A DNA stretch of 64,000 nucleotides from Polynucleobacter sp. TUM22923. Lineage in GTDB: Bacteria > Pseudomonadota > Gammaproteobacteria > Burkholderiales > Burkholderiaceae. The translations under genes and the position numbers were made by a program. A model generated the notes under the pieces. It ran no database searches. It saw only the letters and a program-made list of their open reading frames with translations, and was not told the origin of the DNA. The stretch covers positions 496,001-560,000 of the forward strand of contig NZ_AP027274.1 of NCBI RefSeq assembly GCF_030295705.1, written 5' to 3'. Position 1 is the first letter of the stretch, and every line of letters starts with the position of its first letter. Below are positions 44,046-50,875 of the stretch, in pieces.

Positions 44046-45887
44046 ATGACAAGCCATAACGATAACGATTCCACTCCGATCAAGCCAGCATCGGATAACG
44101 CCGCAAACCAAAAATCTGCTACTGATACCCCAGCCGCTGATGGAGTGAAGACTGAGGGTCGCGAGGATCGCCCACGTCGCCCACGCCGTCAAGGTTCTAG
44201 CAACAGAGATGGTAACGGCAACAGCAATGGCAACAGTAACGGCAACAGCTCTGGCTCGGCCAGGCATGCGGCAAATAAAAAACGTCCACCAAACAAAGAT
44301 CGGCCTCGTAGAGAAGGTGGTGATGCTCAAGGTATCCGCGAGGGTGGAGCGCATTCCGCCGCTAAGCTTGCGCCTAATCCAGCTGAGAGTGAGGCTTTGT
44401 TTGCTTCGGTAGTTTCTGGTGAGTTTGATGCAGCCCTAGATGCGCCAGAAGCTGTGCAAGTTCAGAATCAAGACGGTGTGAATGAGAGTGAAATTTCTCA
44501 TCAAACGGGTGCTGAGCGTAATGCGCAACGTGTACGTCATGACGAAGATGCTGATGTTCCGAGCGATGATGAAATGAGTAGTTTGCAGTTTGCAAACATT
44601 GATGACTTGCCACTCAGTCTACGCAATGAAGTTTGGTCTGACCTAGATGGTCTAGATGATGAGGCTGACGACGAAGATACGGTCAAGCTGCATAAGGTCC
44701 TAGCGGATGTCGGTATGGGCTCGCGTCGCGACATGGAGGACTTGATTATTCAAGGGCGTGTCTCTGTTAATGGATTGCCTGCACACATCGGCCAACGTAT
44801 CGGACCAACTGATCAAGTTCGCATCAATGGCAAGCCCGTTCATCGCAAGATTCAAACTAAACCACCCCGTGTTATTTTGTATCACAAGCCTGCAGGCGAA
44901 ATCGTGAGTCAGTCCGATCCTGAAGGCCGCCCAACAGTATTTGACCGTTTACCTAAACCAAGGCAAGGCCGTTGGATTGCGGTTGGCCGTTTGGACTTCA
45001 ATACAGAAGGTTTGTTGTTATTTACTACTTCTGGTGAATTGGCTAACCGCTTAATGCATCCTCGCTATGGAGTTGAGCGCGAGTATGCCGTCCGAATTCT
45101 GGGTGAGTTAAGTCAAGAAAATACATCCTTATTAAAGACAGGCATTACTCTGGATGACGGCCAAGCGAAGTTTTTGCGCTTATCCATGGGTGGTGGCGAT
45201 GGTGCAAATCGCTGGTACCACGTTGCTTTGAACGAAGGACGTAACCGTGAGGTACGTCGTATGTTTGAGGCGGTTGGTCATACCGTGTCTCGTCTGCTAC
45301 GTACTCGCTATGGAATATTTTTATTGCCTCCTCGCTTAAGACGGGGAAAGTGGGAAGAGTTAGAAGCTGGTGGCATTTACAACTTAATGAAATCAGCGGG
45401 CTTGAGAATGCCTCAGCCAACGGATAAAGGGCGCAGTCCACATGCTCAAGGGCGTGATCGACAATCTGCCCCAGTGGGTGATTTCCAGCCAGATCCAATG
45501 CAAACCTCGGTTTCTTATTGGGGTTCTCGTGATGCTTTGACGATGGCCAGTGGACATCATGAGTTAACCCATCAAGGTCGAGGCGGCAAACCTGGTGGTG
45601 GTGTGCCGGCCGAAGGTCGTGGCCCGTTTAGGGGTCGTACTCAGGGCGGACGCCCCGGTTCCCCTGGTCGTGGAGGTCAGGGTGGCCAGGGTGGACGAAG
45701 TGCAGAAGGCGGCCAAGGTCAGAATCGTGGCAAGGGCGGAGGCGGTAAAGTGCATCATGGTCAGTCGGCTTTTGTGACTGCCAGCCCTCAAAATCCTGGA
45801 AATGGCCCTAAACGCGGAGCACCTAAGGGGCGAAAACCCTTTAATAAAGGGCCTCGAAAGCCTAGAAACCCAAGCGAAAGCTTCTGA
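44046..45887 (+). CDS. rluB: 23S rRNA pseudouridine synthase RluB with long disordered tails
   Basis: 613 residues, roughly twice the length of E. coli RluB. The catalytic core lies at about 215-455. It has an S4 domain ([20 protein letters not shown] and [12 protein letters not shown]) and the RsuA/RluB motif [13 protein letters not shown] with catalytic Asp near residue 317. The motif [19 protein letters not shown] also belongs to it. Residues 1-210 are low complexity, basic then acidic. Residues ~520-613 are Gly/Arg-rich with many RGG-like steps. RluB modifies U2605 in helix 93 of 23S rRNA. The tails probably bind RNA. Confidence 0.93.
44211..44246 (+). repeat. In-frame 12-bp tandem repeat in rluB N-terminal tail (3 copies)
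   Basis: Units GGTAACGGCAAC, AGCAATGGCAAC and AGTAACGGCAAC encode a Gly/Ser-Asn-Gly-Asn repeat in the disordered head of RluB, followed by a decayed partial unit. Confidence 0.8.
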
Positions 45888-45889
45888 TT

Positions 45890-45920
45890 TTGATGGGTTT
45901 TCCTCTAAATCAGCTATAAT
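45890..45920 (+). promoter_or_regulatory. Promoter upstream of rimP operon leader
   Basis: A perfect -10 box TATAAT stands at 45915-45920. A weak -35-like TTGATG at 45890-45895 lies 19 bases upstream, longer than the ideal 17. It starts 3 bases after the rluB stop codon. Transcription would begin near 45927 and run into the structured leader before rimP. Confidence 0.7.
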
Positions 45921-45926
45921 TTTGGT

Positions 45927-46036
45927 CTTGCAGCAGATGATTGCTGTTTTAAGTGTTTACCGACTGATGTTGCGATCAACGTAAGTCGGCCTGTTCTGAA
46001 TTTCGAGAATATGGGCTTCAAAGCCCATTTTTTTTT
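45927..46036 (+). ncRNA. Candidate structured leader / small RNA before rimP-nusA-infB
   Basis: About 110 nucleotides from the predicted start to the end of a T run. Stem 1: CAGCA-GATGAT-TGCTG (45931-45946). Stem 2: CCGACT-GAT-GTTG-CGAT-CAAC-GTA-AGTCGG (45960-45989), two helices around a 3x3 internal loop with a 4-base apical loop. Stem 3: ATGGGCTT-CA-AAGCCCAT (46011-46028) followed by nine T, an intrinsic terminator. It encodes no evident peptide. Either it is a free small RNA or an attenuator controlling the downstream operon. No known RNA family was recognised. Confidence 0.65.
46011..46036 (+). terminator. Intrinsic terminator upstream of rimP
   Basis: Perfect 8-bp stem with a minimal loop and a run of nine T, placed 24 bases before the TTG start of rimP and downstream of a TATAAT promoter. 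It must be read through for nusA-infB expression from that promoter. Confidence 0.9.
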
Positions 46037-46060
46037 GCCGTTTTGTATTGAAGGGTACTT

Positions 46061-46552
46061 TTGAAAGATCAGCGGATTATTTCTGCAGAGGTGGAAAACC
46101 TGGGTTACACGCTAGTGGAAATTGAGCGTGAAGCCGGTGGATTGCTGCGTGTGACGATCGAAAACCCAGATTACGAGCGCATGATTAATGTGTTGGATTG
46201 TGAAAAAGTGAGCCATCAACTGAGCTATACCTTGCCAGTTGAAAATATTCCTTTTGAGCGTTTAGAGATTTCTTCGCCAGGATTGGATCGTCCAGTTAAA
46301 TCTGCGGCGGACTTTGAGCGCTTTTCTGGTGCAGAGGTAGATTTAAAGTTGCGAGTTGCCGCTGGTGGCCGTAAGAATTTTCGTGGTGTGTTGCAAGGTT
46401 TGCTAAGCGGTGAATTAGATTCACCGGATGCCAAATTTGGTTTGTTGTTTGAAGGCGCTGATGGCGCTGAGTCTCAATTGGAGTTTTCTTTAGCCGAGGT
46501 CGATAAGACTCGGCTGGTCCCTGTTATTGATTTCAAAGGAAGAAAGTCATGA
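46061..46552 (+). CDS. rimP: Ribosome maturation factor RimP
   Basis: 163 residues, starting with TTG; the ribosome site GAAGGG lies 5 bases before it. RimP features are [20 protein letters not shown] near 12-31, [13 protein letters not shown] (46-58), and [20 protein letters not shown] (69-88). The C-terminal SH3-like domain ends [10 protein letters not shown]. RimP helps mature the 30S subunit. The stop overlaps the nusA start as ATGA, and a terminator lies just upstream, so both transcription and translation of this first gene look throttled. Confidence 0.95.
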
Positions 46553-48030
46553 GTCGAGAAGTTCTCATGTTGGCAGACGCCTTAGCGCGTGAAAAGAACG
46601 TTGATCGTGAAATTGTGTTCGAGGCGCTCGAAATGGCGTTGGCATCGGCCACTAAAAAGCGCTACACCACAGAGGATGTGGATATTCGTGTGGTGATTGA
46701 CCGTGAGTCAGGCGAATACGAATCTTTCCGTCGTTGGTTAGTTGTGCCTGACGAGGCTGGTCTTCAAGAGCCGGATAAGGAAATTCTTCATTTTGAAGCT
46801 CAAGAGCAATTTTCCGATATGGAAGTTGGCGAGTACATCGAAGAGCAAATCGAATCCTTAGCCTTTGGCCGGATTGGTGCGCAAGCAGCTAAGCAGGTGA
46901 TCTTGCAGCGCATTCGTGATGCTGAACGCGAACAAATCTTGAATGACTATCTTGAGCGTGGCGAAAAAGTCATGACCGGTACCGTCAAGCGTGCAGATAA
47001 GAATGGCTTGATTATTGAATCAGGTCGCGTAGAGGCATTATTGCGTCGCGACCAAATGATCCCTAAAGAGAATCTTCGTTCTGGCGACCGTGTGCGCGCA
47101 TACATCATGAAAGTGGATCGCGAAGTTCGTGGCCCACAGATTGAGCTTTCCCGTACTTGCCCAGAATTTTTAATTAAGTTATTTGAAAATGAAGTTCCAG
47201 AGATGGAGCAGGGCTTATTAGAGATTAAAGGCGCTGCCCGTGATCCTGGTATTCGCGCAAAAATTGCTGTAATCACTTATGACAAGCGCATCGATCCTAT
47301 CGGTACTTGTGTAGGTGTTCGTGGTACTCGTGTTACAGCGGTGCGTAATGAAGTTGCTGGCGAAGCAGTCGATATTGTGTTGTGGTCTGAAGATCCAGCG
47401 CAGTTTGTGATTGGTGCCTTAGCTCCTGCTCAAGTGTCCTCAATTGTGGTGGATGAAGAGCGCCATGCCATGGATGTAGTGGTGGATGAAGAGAATTTGG
47501 CAATTGCGATTGGCCGTAGTGGTCAGAACGTTCGCTTAGCGAGTGAGTTGACTGGATGGCAGATCAACATCATGACTCCAGAAGAGTCTGCTGAGAAAAC
47601 AGAAAAAGAAGCTTCCTCTGTACGCCAGTTATTTATGGATAAATTGGATGTGGACCAAGAAGTGGCCGATATTTTAATTGCAGAGGGTTTCAATACATTG
47701 GAAGAGGTTGCTTATGTACCACTTTCGGAGATATTAGAAATCGATTCCTTTGATGAAGATACTGTGAATGAGCTACGTACTCGTGCCCGCGATTCTCTCT
47801 TGACGATGCAGTTAGCCCAGGAAGAGCGTGTTGGTGAGGTTTCACAAGATTTACGCTCCCTAGAGGGAATGACTACGGAGTTGGTTGCCAAGCTTGCTGA
47901 CAATCAGGTTCATACCCGTGACGACTTAGCTGAACTGGCTGTTGATGAGCTAGTTGAGGCGACACAAATTGACGAAGAAACTGCGAAAACGCTCATCATG
48001 AAAGCGCGCGAACATTGGTTTACTTCATGA
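46549..48030 (+). CDS. nusA: Transcription factor NusA
   Basis: 493 residues with all expected domains: N-terminal RNA-polymerase-binding domain (1-130), S1 domain (~135-200, [20 protein letters not shown] in part), KH1-KH2 (~205-345, with [14 protein letters not shown] and [17 protein letters not shown]). Two C-terminal helical acidic repeats (~365-420 and ~440-490) follow, as in proteobacterial NusA. It controls pausing, termination and antitermination. It is coupled to rimP by ATGA and precedes infB by 13 bases. Confidence 0.97.
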
Positions 48031-48043
48031 GAGGAAGTAGTAC

Positions 48044-50875
48044 ATGGCAACAACAGTAAAAGTACTCGCTAAAGAATTAAAACGTACCGCACCAGATCTC
48101 TTGGAGCAGTTAAAAGCTGCTGGCGTTGAAAAAGGCTCTGAAGACGACAGCATTACCGAAAAAGACAAGATTGCCTTGCTTGAGCATTTGCAAAAAGAGC
48201 ATGGTAGTGTTGATGCAGGTAGTCGTAAAAAGATCACCTTGATCAAGCGTGAGAGCTCGGAGATTCGTCAGGCGGATTCCGCTGGTCGAACACGTACTGT
48301 TCAGGTAGAGGTTCGCAAAAAGCGCGTATTAGAAAAGAGTGGCGACTCGGTTGCTGAAGCTCCAGAGCCTGAGAAGGCTCCAGTTCAGACTGCGACTCCT
48401 GTAGAGTCAGCGCAGTCAGCACAATCCATTCTTTCCACTCAAGAGTTGGAAAAGCGGGCTGCTGAGGCAACTCGTCAAGCGGAGTTGCTTGCACGTCAAG
48501 AAGCTGAGATGAAAGCGGCAGTAGATGCCCGCCAAAAAGAAGCTGATGCTGCTGCTACTGCTGCTGCCACGATTGCTGTTGCAGATCCTGTTGTTGAAAA
48601 AGCAGGTAAATCTATTGAAGCAGCTTCTGTTGCAGCTGCTGATGCAATTGCTGCTGCAACCGCTGCTACTGAAAAGAAAGCAGCCTTAGAAAAAGCTGCC
48701 AAAGAGCTAGCTGATGTCAATAAGGCACAACTGGCGGATATTTCAAAACGTCGCGCTGCTGCAGAAGCAGAAGCACTAGCTATTCGCGACATGATGAGTG
48801 CTCCTGCGCGCGTCCTTAAGGCACCAAGTGAAATTGCTGCTGAAGAGGCGAAAAAGGGCACATTACACAAGCCTGCAAAAGTAGAGGGCGCGGACGACAA
48901 AAAGAAAGTCGCACCTAAGGTTGGCGGAAAAACGATTAAGTCTGCTGAAACATCGTCCACTTGGCAAGAAGAGGGCGCGAAGAAGTCAGTCGGCCTCAAG
49001 ACCCGCGGCGATAGTCCTGGCGGTGCAAACGGATGGCGTTCCGGCGGCGGCAGAAGAAAGCAGCGTCAAATTGCTGAAGCGAACGTCGACACCAACTTCC
49101 AAGTACCTACAGAAAAAGTGGTTCATGATGTTCAGGTTCCTGAGACGATTACGGTTGCTGACTTAGCGCACGCAATGGCTGTTAAGAGCGCTGAAGTGAT
49201 TAAGCTGCTTATGGGCATGGGACAGATGGTTACCATCAACCAAATTTTGGATCAAGATACTGCGATGATCATCGTAGAAGAGATGGGTCACGTAGCTCAT
49301 GCTGCGAAGTTAGATGATCCAGATTTAGATCTCGGTACCGACGGTCAAGATGCAGAATTGTTGCCACGTCCACCAGTAGTCACGGTGATGGGTCACGTTG
49401 ACCACGGTAAAACTTCCTTGCTTGATAAGATTCGTGCGGCAAAAGTAGCTACTGGTGAAGCGGGTGGTATCACCCAGCATATCGGTGCATACCATGTCGA
49501 GACTGCCCGTGGCATGATTACCTTCTTGGATACACCAGGCCATGAAGCATTTACGGCGATGCGTGCTCGCGGTGCCAAAGCAACCGATATCGTTATCTTG
49601 GTAGTGGCTGCAGATGATGGCGTGATGCCGCAGACCAAAGAAGCGATTCACCATGCGCAAGCTGCTGGTGTTCCTATCGTTGTGGCAATCAATAAAGTCG
49701 ACAAACCAGAGGCAAACTCAGAGCGCGTTAAAACGGAGTTAGTTGCTGAGCAAGTTGTTCCAGAGGAATACGGTGGCGACGTGCCATTTATCCCAGTCTC
49801 CGCCAAAACTGGTGAAGGCATTGATGCTTTGCTTGAGAACGTGCTTTTACAAGCAGAAATTCTTGAGCTCAAAGCAGCTAAGGATGCGCCAGCGCAAGGT
49901 CTTGTTATTGAGGCACGCTTAGATAAAGGTCGCGGTCCTGTTGCCACTATTCTGGTTCAGTCTGGAACACTCAAACGTGGTGATATGTTGTTAGCTGGAT
50001 CGACTTATGGTCGCGTGCGCGCAATGATGGATGAGAATGGCAAAGCGTGTAACGAAGCTGGACCATCTATTCCGGTAGAGATTCAAGGTTTATCTGAAGT
50101 TCCTGCAGCGGGCGAATCCGTCCAAGTGGTTCCAAATGAGCGTAAAGCCCGTGAGGTCGCATTGTTCCGTCAAGGTAAGTTCCGCGATGTGAAGCTAGCG
50201 AAGCAGCAAGCGTTCAAACTCGAAACCATGATGGAAAACATGGAAGAGGGTGCTATTGAGGCCAAGCTGTTGCCATTAATCATTAAGGCGGATGTTCAGG
50301 GCTCACAAGAAGCGCTATCTCAGTCGTTGCAAAAATTATCTACATCTGAAGTTAAGGTGCAAGTCGTTCACGCAGGAGTCGGTGGTATTACTGAAACTGA
50401 CGTGAACTTAGCGGTAGCTTCAAAAGCGGTCATTATTGGCTTTAACGCACGTGCAGATGGTGCGGCACGTAAGCTAGCTGAAAATAATGGTGTGGACATT
50501 CGTTATCACAACATTATTTATGACGCAGTGGATGAAGTGAAGGCTGCCTTAAGTGGTATGTTGACTCCAGATAAGAAAGAAGAAATCACCGGCATGGTTG
50601 AGATTCGTCAAGTCTTCTTGGTCTCTAAAGTGGGCGCGATTGCTGGTTGCTTAGTACTTGATGGTGTTGTGAAGCGCAATTCAAGTGTGCGCCTCTTGCG
50701 TAACAACGTAGTAGTTTGGTCGGGCGAGCTGGATTCTCTGAAGCGCTTTAAAGATGATGCAAAAGAAGTTCGTGCTGGTGTTGAGTGTGGTCTGTCATTA
50801 AAAGGCTACAACGACATTAAAGAAGGCGATCAACTGGAAGCATTTGAGGTGACTGAAGTGGCAAGAACGCTTTAG
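48044..50875 (+). CDS. infB: Translation initiation factor IF-2
   Basis: 943 residues. The small N-terminal subdomain (1-55, [19 protein letters not shown]) is followed by a long Ala/Lys/Glu-rich linker (~90-310) and a second IF2_N domain near 365-415. The GTPase domain has G1 GHVDHGKTS near residue 449, DTPGHEAF and NKVDKPEA. Domains II-IV follow with [11 protein letters not shown] and [19 protein letters not shown]-2 brings fMet-tRNA to the 30S subunit. It stands in the conserved nusA-infB-rbfA-truB order. Confidence 0.98.

Follow-up and report, generated by a model that had tools for sequence, protein, structure and literature searches.

The leader of the nusA operon of Bacillus subtilis, one of the closest described systems to the one treated here, was reportedly the subject of work by Mondal in 2016. 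In this bacterium NusA is autoregulated, through NusA-stimulated termination in its own leader, according to the account in PMC12288461. For Escherichia coli it is reported that two terminators, t1 and t2, precede rimP, and that the transcripts of the operon increase in mutants with reduced NusA termination (PMC6511841); a fusion to the rimP 5' UTR shows lower expression in a rho mutant (PMC7815308), so that other termination control may act there. From a broader perspective, rimP ranks first among the attenuator-bearing genes considered in PMC2965389, where NusA is the proposed sensor, and the rimP leader of Salmonella is listed among the ProQ-associated sRNAs derived from attenuators (PMC5391140). 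Other motifs of Polynucleobacter are in print, among them carA, icd-II and HRC-28-1 (PMC8632094); the term rimP is absent from the main text of that paper, whose supplement may list the region, and a literature search found no publication naming a rimP-leader element of Polynucleobacter.

The leader described here lies in a stretch of 64,000 nucleotides from Polynucleobacter sp. TUM22923 (contig NZ_AP027274.1), which is called the window and in which all positions are counted. It is probably a transcription attenuator of the rimP-nusA-infB-rbfA-truB operon, belonging to the known rimP-leader kind and extended by a lineage module of two hairpins, P2 and P3.

Genomic context and anatomy of the leader

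The genome that contains the window comprises 1.86 Mb in one contig, and its RimP is nearest to those of named Polynucleobacter species (98% to P. brandtiae, among the best 80 of 92 relatives in the RimP search). The genes are arranged in the order scpB, rluB, leader, rimP, nusA, infB, rbfA, truB and typA, and the leader fills the interval between the last base of the rluB stop codon, at 45887, and the TTG start codon of rimP. A DNA search finds it in a single copy in its own genome. RluB itself (44046-45887) has long low-complexity N- and C-terminal extensions, which flank the pseudouridine synthase domain (residues 213-447 of 613).

Table 1. Features of the leader and of the first operon genes, in positions of the window.
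Feature	Position	Strand	Basis or remark
-10 box TATAAT	45915..45920	+	Invariant in 67/67 aligned sequences; without a good -35
P1, 5'-most hairpin, variable in sequence	45930..45947	+	Window fold; lacking in L068 and L071
P2, nearly invariant hairpin: 6 pairs, 3x3 loop (GAU/GUA), 4 pairs, CGAU loop	45960..45989	+	Identical in 63/71
P2 internal loop, 5' side: GAU; GAA, AAA or GUU in divergent relatives	45966..45968	+	Alignment A4
P2 internal loop, 3' side: GUA, no variation	45981..45983	+	Alignment A4
P3, short hairpin UGUUCU/AGAAUA adjoining the terminator	45992..46011 (45992-45997 with 46006-46011)	+	Paired in 100% of cells (five counted pairs)
Extended P3, candidate antiterminator, from the first base after P2 into the 5' base of the terminator stem	45990..46014	+	Folding without the terminator 3' arm
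Intrinsic terminator, AUGGGCU UCAA AGCCCAU and nine T	46011..46036	+	Direct reading, scan, conservation
rimP, TTG start, first gene of the operon	46061..46552	+	NF000929 RimP, 189 bits, above cut-off
nusA	46549..48030	+	TIGR01953 NusA, 391.7 bits
infB (IF-2)	48044..50875	+	TIGR00487, 845.8 bits

A preliminary description of this interval, made from the sequence, had noted a TATAAT box, two stem-loops, of which the second contained a 3x3 internal loop, and a nine-T terminator whose end is separated from the rimP start by 24 bases. Direct reading and conservation bear out all these elements; the two hairpins counted there, P1 and P2, are present, and P3 had been missed. Transcription is expected to start at about 45927, some seven bases 3' of the TATAAT. 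The best -35 element available for this box in the window is TTGATG, at a distance of 19 bases, which is poor, and a simple scan of the 4 kb around the leader returned no -35/-10 pair at this TATAAT. The same 4 kb contains three terminator-like sites, against 4.6 in shuffled sequences. Because promoter and terminator scans of this region do not exceed the shuffled expectation, the case for the leader must rest on conservation.

Within the terminator, the stem is formed by 46011-46017 with 46022-46028, and the nine T occupy 46028-46036, the first of them pairing with A46011. The stretch 45925-46045 folds at -35.2 kcal/mol, compared with -25.7 (sd 3.2) in 200 shuffles, none of which is as low (z -2.97). 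P2 shows a single G.A mismatch in the minimum-energy fold of the window, and the 3x3 loop when divergent relatives are folded. A frame of 15 codons starting with ATG is present at 45937-45984, its start lying inside the variable P1, and is not common to the relatives in alignment A2. A leader peptide was rejected on this ground, in substantial agreement with the preliminary description, which saw no peptide in the interval.

Conservation and covariation

The best 80 of 92 relatives in the RimP search were taken as loci, and three of them that are cut at or inside rimP (L072, L073 and L078) were dropped, leaving 77 loci and the window. Among these 78 sequences, P2 is present in 71, an upstream TATAAT in 75 and the motif GGGC..GCCCA-T6 likewise in 75, and the order TATAAT, P2, terminator, rimP is unchanged in 71. 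The seven loci without P2 are L074-L077 and L079-L081; by eye, L079 and L080 have a variant terminator and none is seen in L081. The 30 bases of P2 are identical in 63 of the 71 sequences, and the cores that extend from P2 to the terminator fall into 20 distinct sequences.

Conservation was measured in an alignment of 67 sequences, in which the longer or P1-less leaders (L061, L063, L068 and L071) and the loci without P2 are left out. P2 has 27 invariant columns out of 30 and a mean identity of 0.994, against 0.79 at the third codon positions of rimP, 0.845 in the 24-base gap between terminator and rimP and 0.817 in P1. All six columns of the TATAAT are invariant, and in the stretch between P2 and the terminator 15 of 21 columns are, compared with 13 of the 163 third codon positions of rimP. 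To judge from these alignments, P2 appears to be under far stronger sequence constraint than a generic RNA stabiliser requires. The sequence of P1 drifts among relatives; its region folds with a z below -1 in 49 of 64 distinct sequences, the window's own P1 reaching only -0.43. The hairpin is wholly missing in L068 and L071, whose transcripts would therefore start almost at P2.

Compensatory change was sought in a wider alignment, A4, which joins the 20 distinct cores to 11 of 17 divergent loci (L119-L135, most of them with a rimP identity of about 63-65%) and thus contains 31 rows, 28 of them distinct. Standard pairs form in 97.2% of its cells, against 96.6 in shuffles, with none of 500 as high, and sliding the pairing partners by one to three columns lowers the figure to 25.5-50.3%. 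The covariation that the preliminary description had proposed to look for across relatives is present, barely: two pairs are changed on both sides, and 41 of 500 shuffles yield at least as many. Pair 7-30 of the P2 outer stem occurs as A-U, G-U or G-C, and pair 58-75 at the base of the terminator as A-U, or G-C once. Seven cells carry a two-sided change, which no shuffle of 500 reaches, and the number of pair types in A4 is no higher than in shuffles (493/500 reach it). All five counted pairs of P3 are kept in every sequence, five of the 12 pairs of P2 never change, and one pair of P2 (12-25) and one of the terminator (64-69) are each unpaired in seven of the 28. Since P2 hardly varies, the covariation evidence is modest. 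In the internal loop of P2 the 3' side is fixed and the 5' side takes the four forms given in Table 1; a wobble pair is lost where U.G becomes A.G, which speaks for a non-canonical 3x3 loop like the one in the preliminary description.

One divergent locus, L119, from a genome of 1.66 Mb (G051), has several pair-breaking changes in P2, as if the element were decaying in a small genome.

Distribution of the module

The occurrence of P2, P3 and the terminator together was surveyed with a covariance model, R1, at E 0.001, the large searches using stricter filters that lose some weak matches. R1 matches 161 of 186 genomes of the genus, 25 having no match. In a sample of the family it matches 40 of 299 genomes, every one in Polynucleobacter, and none of the 24 other sampled genera. 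A sample of the order gives nine matches in 300 genomes, four of them in the genus and five outside it at 26.8-31.7 bits; rimP lies just downstream of each of these five weak matches, which by eye are located at the terminator. Both rluB and rimP accompany the leader in 53 of the 55 matched loci examined, and in the remaining two (L126 and L135) rluB is present and the contig ends at the leader.

Twelve of the genus genomes without a match were searched again with laxer filters, which gave seven weak matches at a rimP terminator without P2 (L137-L143), three elsewhere and two genomes with none. L137-L143 come from genomes of 2.3-3.2 Mb, and in them the terminator before rimP is kept, P2 is absent and, by eye, other hairpins take its place. 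In G037, a genome of 1.7 Mb in one contig, the leader model is unmatched even at a lax threshold. Two further candidates were rejected. The four of the extra weak matches that were inspected as second copies (L146-L149) are by eye ordinary terminators elsewhere; and, as regards a phage origin, the single viral-contig match to the pattern lies at the end of its locus and has neither a rimP nor an rluB match.

Leaders of rimP in other genera of the family

For comparison, 82 rimP loci from other genera were assembled, two of them from one genome; L179, whose contig begins inside rimP, was excluded. Of the 82, 74 have a GGGC..GCCC-T5 motif at a distance of 59-261 bases upstream of the RimP domain, and six of the eight loci that lack it (L195-L200) have, by eye, a GGGC hairpin with a longer loop. 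These six, from genera g21 and g22, present at the rimP terminator a recurrent longer stem-loop, GGGC(G/A)CCA(C/U)..GUGG..GCCC, also seen by eye. A TATAAT-like box occurs in many of the leaders, and their upstream part varies from genus to genus.

The sequence AGUCG(C/A)U(G/A)GG, near the start, is common to 32 distinct leaders, identical ones being counted once (35 motif loci, seven genera), and is not found in L167, L205 and L210; the genera that carry it we take to be Burkholderia-like. When 27 of the 32 are aligned, the other five (L189, L194, L211, L223 and L227) being set aside for their long insertions, a common hairpin is obtained in which GUCGCUGGGC pairs with GCUC..GCGAC, with two compensated pairs. 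This alignment, A3 (L182:1822-1901, minus strand, and 26 further rows, from six genera), represents a structured leader of its own, with AGUCGCUGGGC paired to GCUC..GCGAC before the same terminator motif.

A resemblance between P2 and the leaders of other genera (UGCGAYCAMC-GUAA) was noticed by eye before the shuffle test, which supports it in some genera and not in all. Out of 1000 shuffles, its score is reached by six in g25, eight in g13, 17 in g12, 18 in g23 (one sequence) and 74 in g20, and by 112 in g8, 548 in g10, 753 in g3, 913 in g24 and 123 to 990 in the nine remaining genera. Because the resemblance is short and does not extend across all genera, homology was rejected as a claim and no common descent is proposed for P2.

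Overlap of P3 with the terminator

If folding is computed without the terminator's 3' arm, P3 gains two pairs that involve the 5' base of the terminator stem (AUGG), and this extended P3 is the lowest-energy fold in 27 of the 28 distinct sequences, L119 being the single exception. It begins at the base that follows P2, or one base later in L068. Its pairs are C-G around a bulged U in the main clade and a continuous C-G, A-U, U-A in the divergent clade, with the same overlap in both. The probability of pairing with the terminator arm is 0.66 in the window, a value that upstream shuffles reach in 31 of 200; the corresponding numbers are 26 to 31 of 200 in five main-clade sequences, 9, 16 and 20 in three divergent ones and 41 in L119. 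Pairing of this sort is no rarity among shuffled sequences.

Energetically, the core of the window prefers the terminated fold, by 6.2 kcal/mol at 37 °C and by 9.7 at 4 °C. In L120 the preference amounts to 4.9 and 10.6 kcal/mol, respectively, and the terminated fold is ahead at each of the four temperatures computed. That cold alone favours the antiterminator was rejected, as the folding energies point the opposite way. In these models the extended P3 could act as an antiterminator; since the terminated fold is energetically favoured and the nine-T terminator looks strong, a switch needs either a factor or kinetics.

Proposed regulation of the operon

The interpretation given in the preliminary description is supported in part: attenuation, which it raised, is backed by the position of the leader, its conservation and the published attenuator at the same place of the operon (PMC2965389). 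RNA polymerase would start downstream of the TATAAT, transcribe P1, P2 and P3 and then meet the terminator. Whether begun at this promoter or reading through from rluB, transcripts would have to cross the terminator before reaching rimP, so that the fraction passing would set rimP expression. P2 is a probable recognition site, both its 3x3 loop and its stem sequence being strongly constrained; the extended P3, and with it read-through by the polymerase, would be favoured if a factor bound there or if the terminator folded more slowly. As to the signal, the best guess is the level of NusA, acting in negative feedback as the preliminary description had suggested; the B. subtilis and E. coli cases make this plausible, and we give it about even chances. 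Cold or cold-shock proteins may provide a second input. A more specific proposal, which we put forward tentatively and with less than even expectation, would have P2 serve as a dedicated receptor: once NusA, RimP or some other factor is bound to it, the adjacent extended P3 would be stabilised as the antiterminator of a two-state switch.

A further reading, which we regard as doubtful, makes cold the main signal of the leader: cold-shock proteins would melt the terminator and thereby raise rimP at low temperature. At 4 °C, RimP of P. asymbioticus (Pnuc_1229) is among the strongest rises, with a log2 change of 5.46, and a cold-shock protein reaches 9.06 (PMC7522526); the window's genome has two cold-shock-domain genes above cut-off, and antitermination by CspA was earlier proposed for the E. 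coli operon, as cited in PMC6511841. The E. coli data of that same source are, however, inconsistent with CspA antitermination, and in P. asymbioticus the rise is shared by the pseudouridine synthase Pnuc_1230 (log2 3.36), ScpB (Pnuc_1231, 1.50) and TypA (Pnuc_1224, 2.11). Judging from the gene order of the window, Pnuc_1230 would be rluB and Pnuc_1225 to 1228 would be truB, rbfA, infB and nusA; the latter four are unmentioned in the main text of PMC7522526 and lie outside its top-50 list. Because RluB and ScpB, encoded upstream of the terminator, rose too, the leader alone cannot be credited for the rise of RimP at 4 °C. The magnitude itself is given differently within the source, as '+5.5 fold' in the body text and as log2 in the table, and RimP appears with 3.73 in a list C that the caption assigns to UV and the heading to 4 °C. 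On these protein data from P. asymbioticus, RimP responds to conditions. The odds of the readings overlap, and cold input and NusA feedback may both hold.

Alternatively, the terminator could be constitutive and leaky, providing a fixed low level of operon expression or simply the end of the rluB transcript, with P2 only protecting the RNA or stacking alongside. The preference for the terminated fold at all temperatures computed would agree with this, as would those relatives that have the terminator with other hairpins or without P2. We nevertheless think it unlikely, given that the sequence of P2 seems constrained beyond the needs of a generic stabiliser and that control at the same place has been published for E. 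coli and B. subtilis (PMC2965389, PMC12288461, PMC6511841).

The suggestion, also made in the preliminary description, of an sRNA of roughly 110 nt, produced from the leader's own promoter and terminator and acting in trans, perhaps with Hfq, fares worse and is in our judgement improbable. The promoter and U9 terminator would suit it, as would the hfq gene encoded in the genome, the Salmonella precedent cited above, the CGAU end loop of P2, retained by 69 of 71 close relatives, and the two C that follow P2, which are invariant in alignment A1 and unpaired in the terminated state. Across lineages, however, this end loop differs (CGAU, AAUA, ACAU, CGUU and CGAG) while stems and internal loop stay, P1 varies freely in sequence, and the conserved bases lie mostly in pairs or in the internal loop; that other parts are better conserved than the free loops weakens the idea. 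Furthermore, besides its single copy in its own genome, the leader adjoins rluB or rimP in 55 of 55 matched loci checked, and no ProQ domain is found in the window's genome at E 0.001.

The rimP operon encodes factors that bind 16S rRNA, and the GAU/GUA loop of P2 presumably resembles part of loop E of 5S rRNA, yet the least probable reading, in which P2 mimics an rRNA site of RimP, RbfA or a ribosomal protein and so allows autoregulation by that protein, was rejected, P2 being no more similar to stretches of the genome's own 16S and 23S genes than its shuffles are (181 and 256 of 300 score as high).

An attenuator thus remains the preferred interpretation of the leader. If P2 is indeed a receptor, Polynucleobacter would have made of a simple rimP-leader terminator a switch for ribosome assembly and for the supply of a termination factor. 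The near-frozen additional hairpin and the possible antiterminator that overlaps the terminator offer a defined RNA in which to look for binding of NusA, RimP or cold-shock proteins, and in a genus that can dominate fresh waters, and in which P. asymbioticus raises RimP strongly in the cold, the leader may help to explain how ribosome assembly is tuned to temperature.

Comparison with known leaders

An Rfam search, which the preliminary description had recommended, finds at gathering thresholds only a tRNA in the window and no family above cut-off in the leader; at relaxed thresholds the matches in the leader are weak, all of them resting on the terminator. The best sub-threshold match is RF02420, the Burkholderia sRNA Bp1_162, at 22 bits against 50 (E 0.12) on the opposite strand and 16.5 bits on the strand of the leader; the shared part is a UGGGC hairpin preceded by an A-rich stretch, and the match corresponds to the terminator. 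With the gammaproteobacterial rimP leader, RF01770, position and terminator motif are alike and the upstream structure is different, the score being 17.4 bits against a gathering value of 47 (E 1.5). The earlier impression that the element is unrelated to the enteric rimP leader therefore holds at the level of this family and has to be qualified for the terminator, which has the broader rimP-leader signature.

The leaders of the other family genera share with that of Polynucleobacter the terminator motif before rimP, and one of their types (AGUCGCUGGGC..) pairs over a longer range. The B. subtilis nusA-operon leader likewise has an intrinsic terminator before nusA, a likeness by description (PMC12288461). 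The closest correspondence is with the general rimP-leader of Naville and Gautheret (2010, PMC2965389), which is also located directly before the rimP-nusA-infB operon and consists of a GGGc..gCCC stem with a U tract, a signature that the AUGGGC..GCCCAU-U9 of Polynucleobacter bears, and by which its core is assigned to the known kind. The terminator of the general leader is placed 4-130 nt before the gene, a range that includes the 24 nt found here. As described in that source, the general rimP-leader has no larger conserved element and no visible antiterminator, whereas that of Polynucleobacter adds P2, P3 and a possible overlapping antiterminator; what is new is thus P2 and the extended P3, on a terminator of an already known type.
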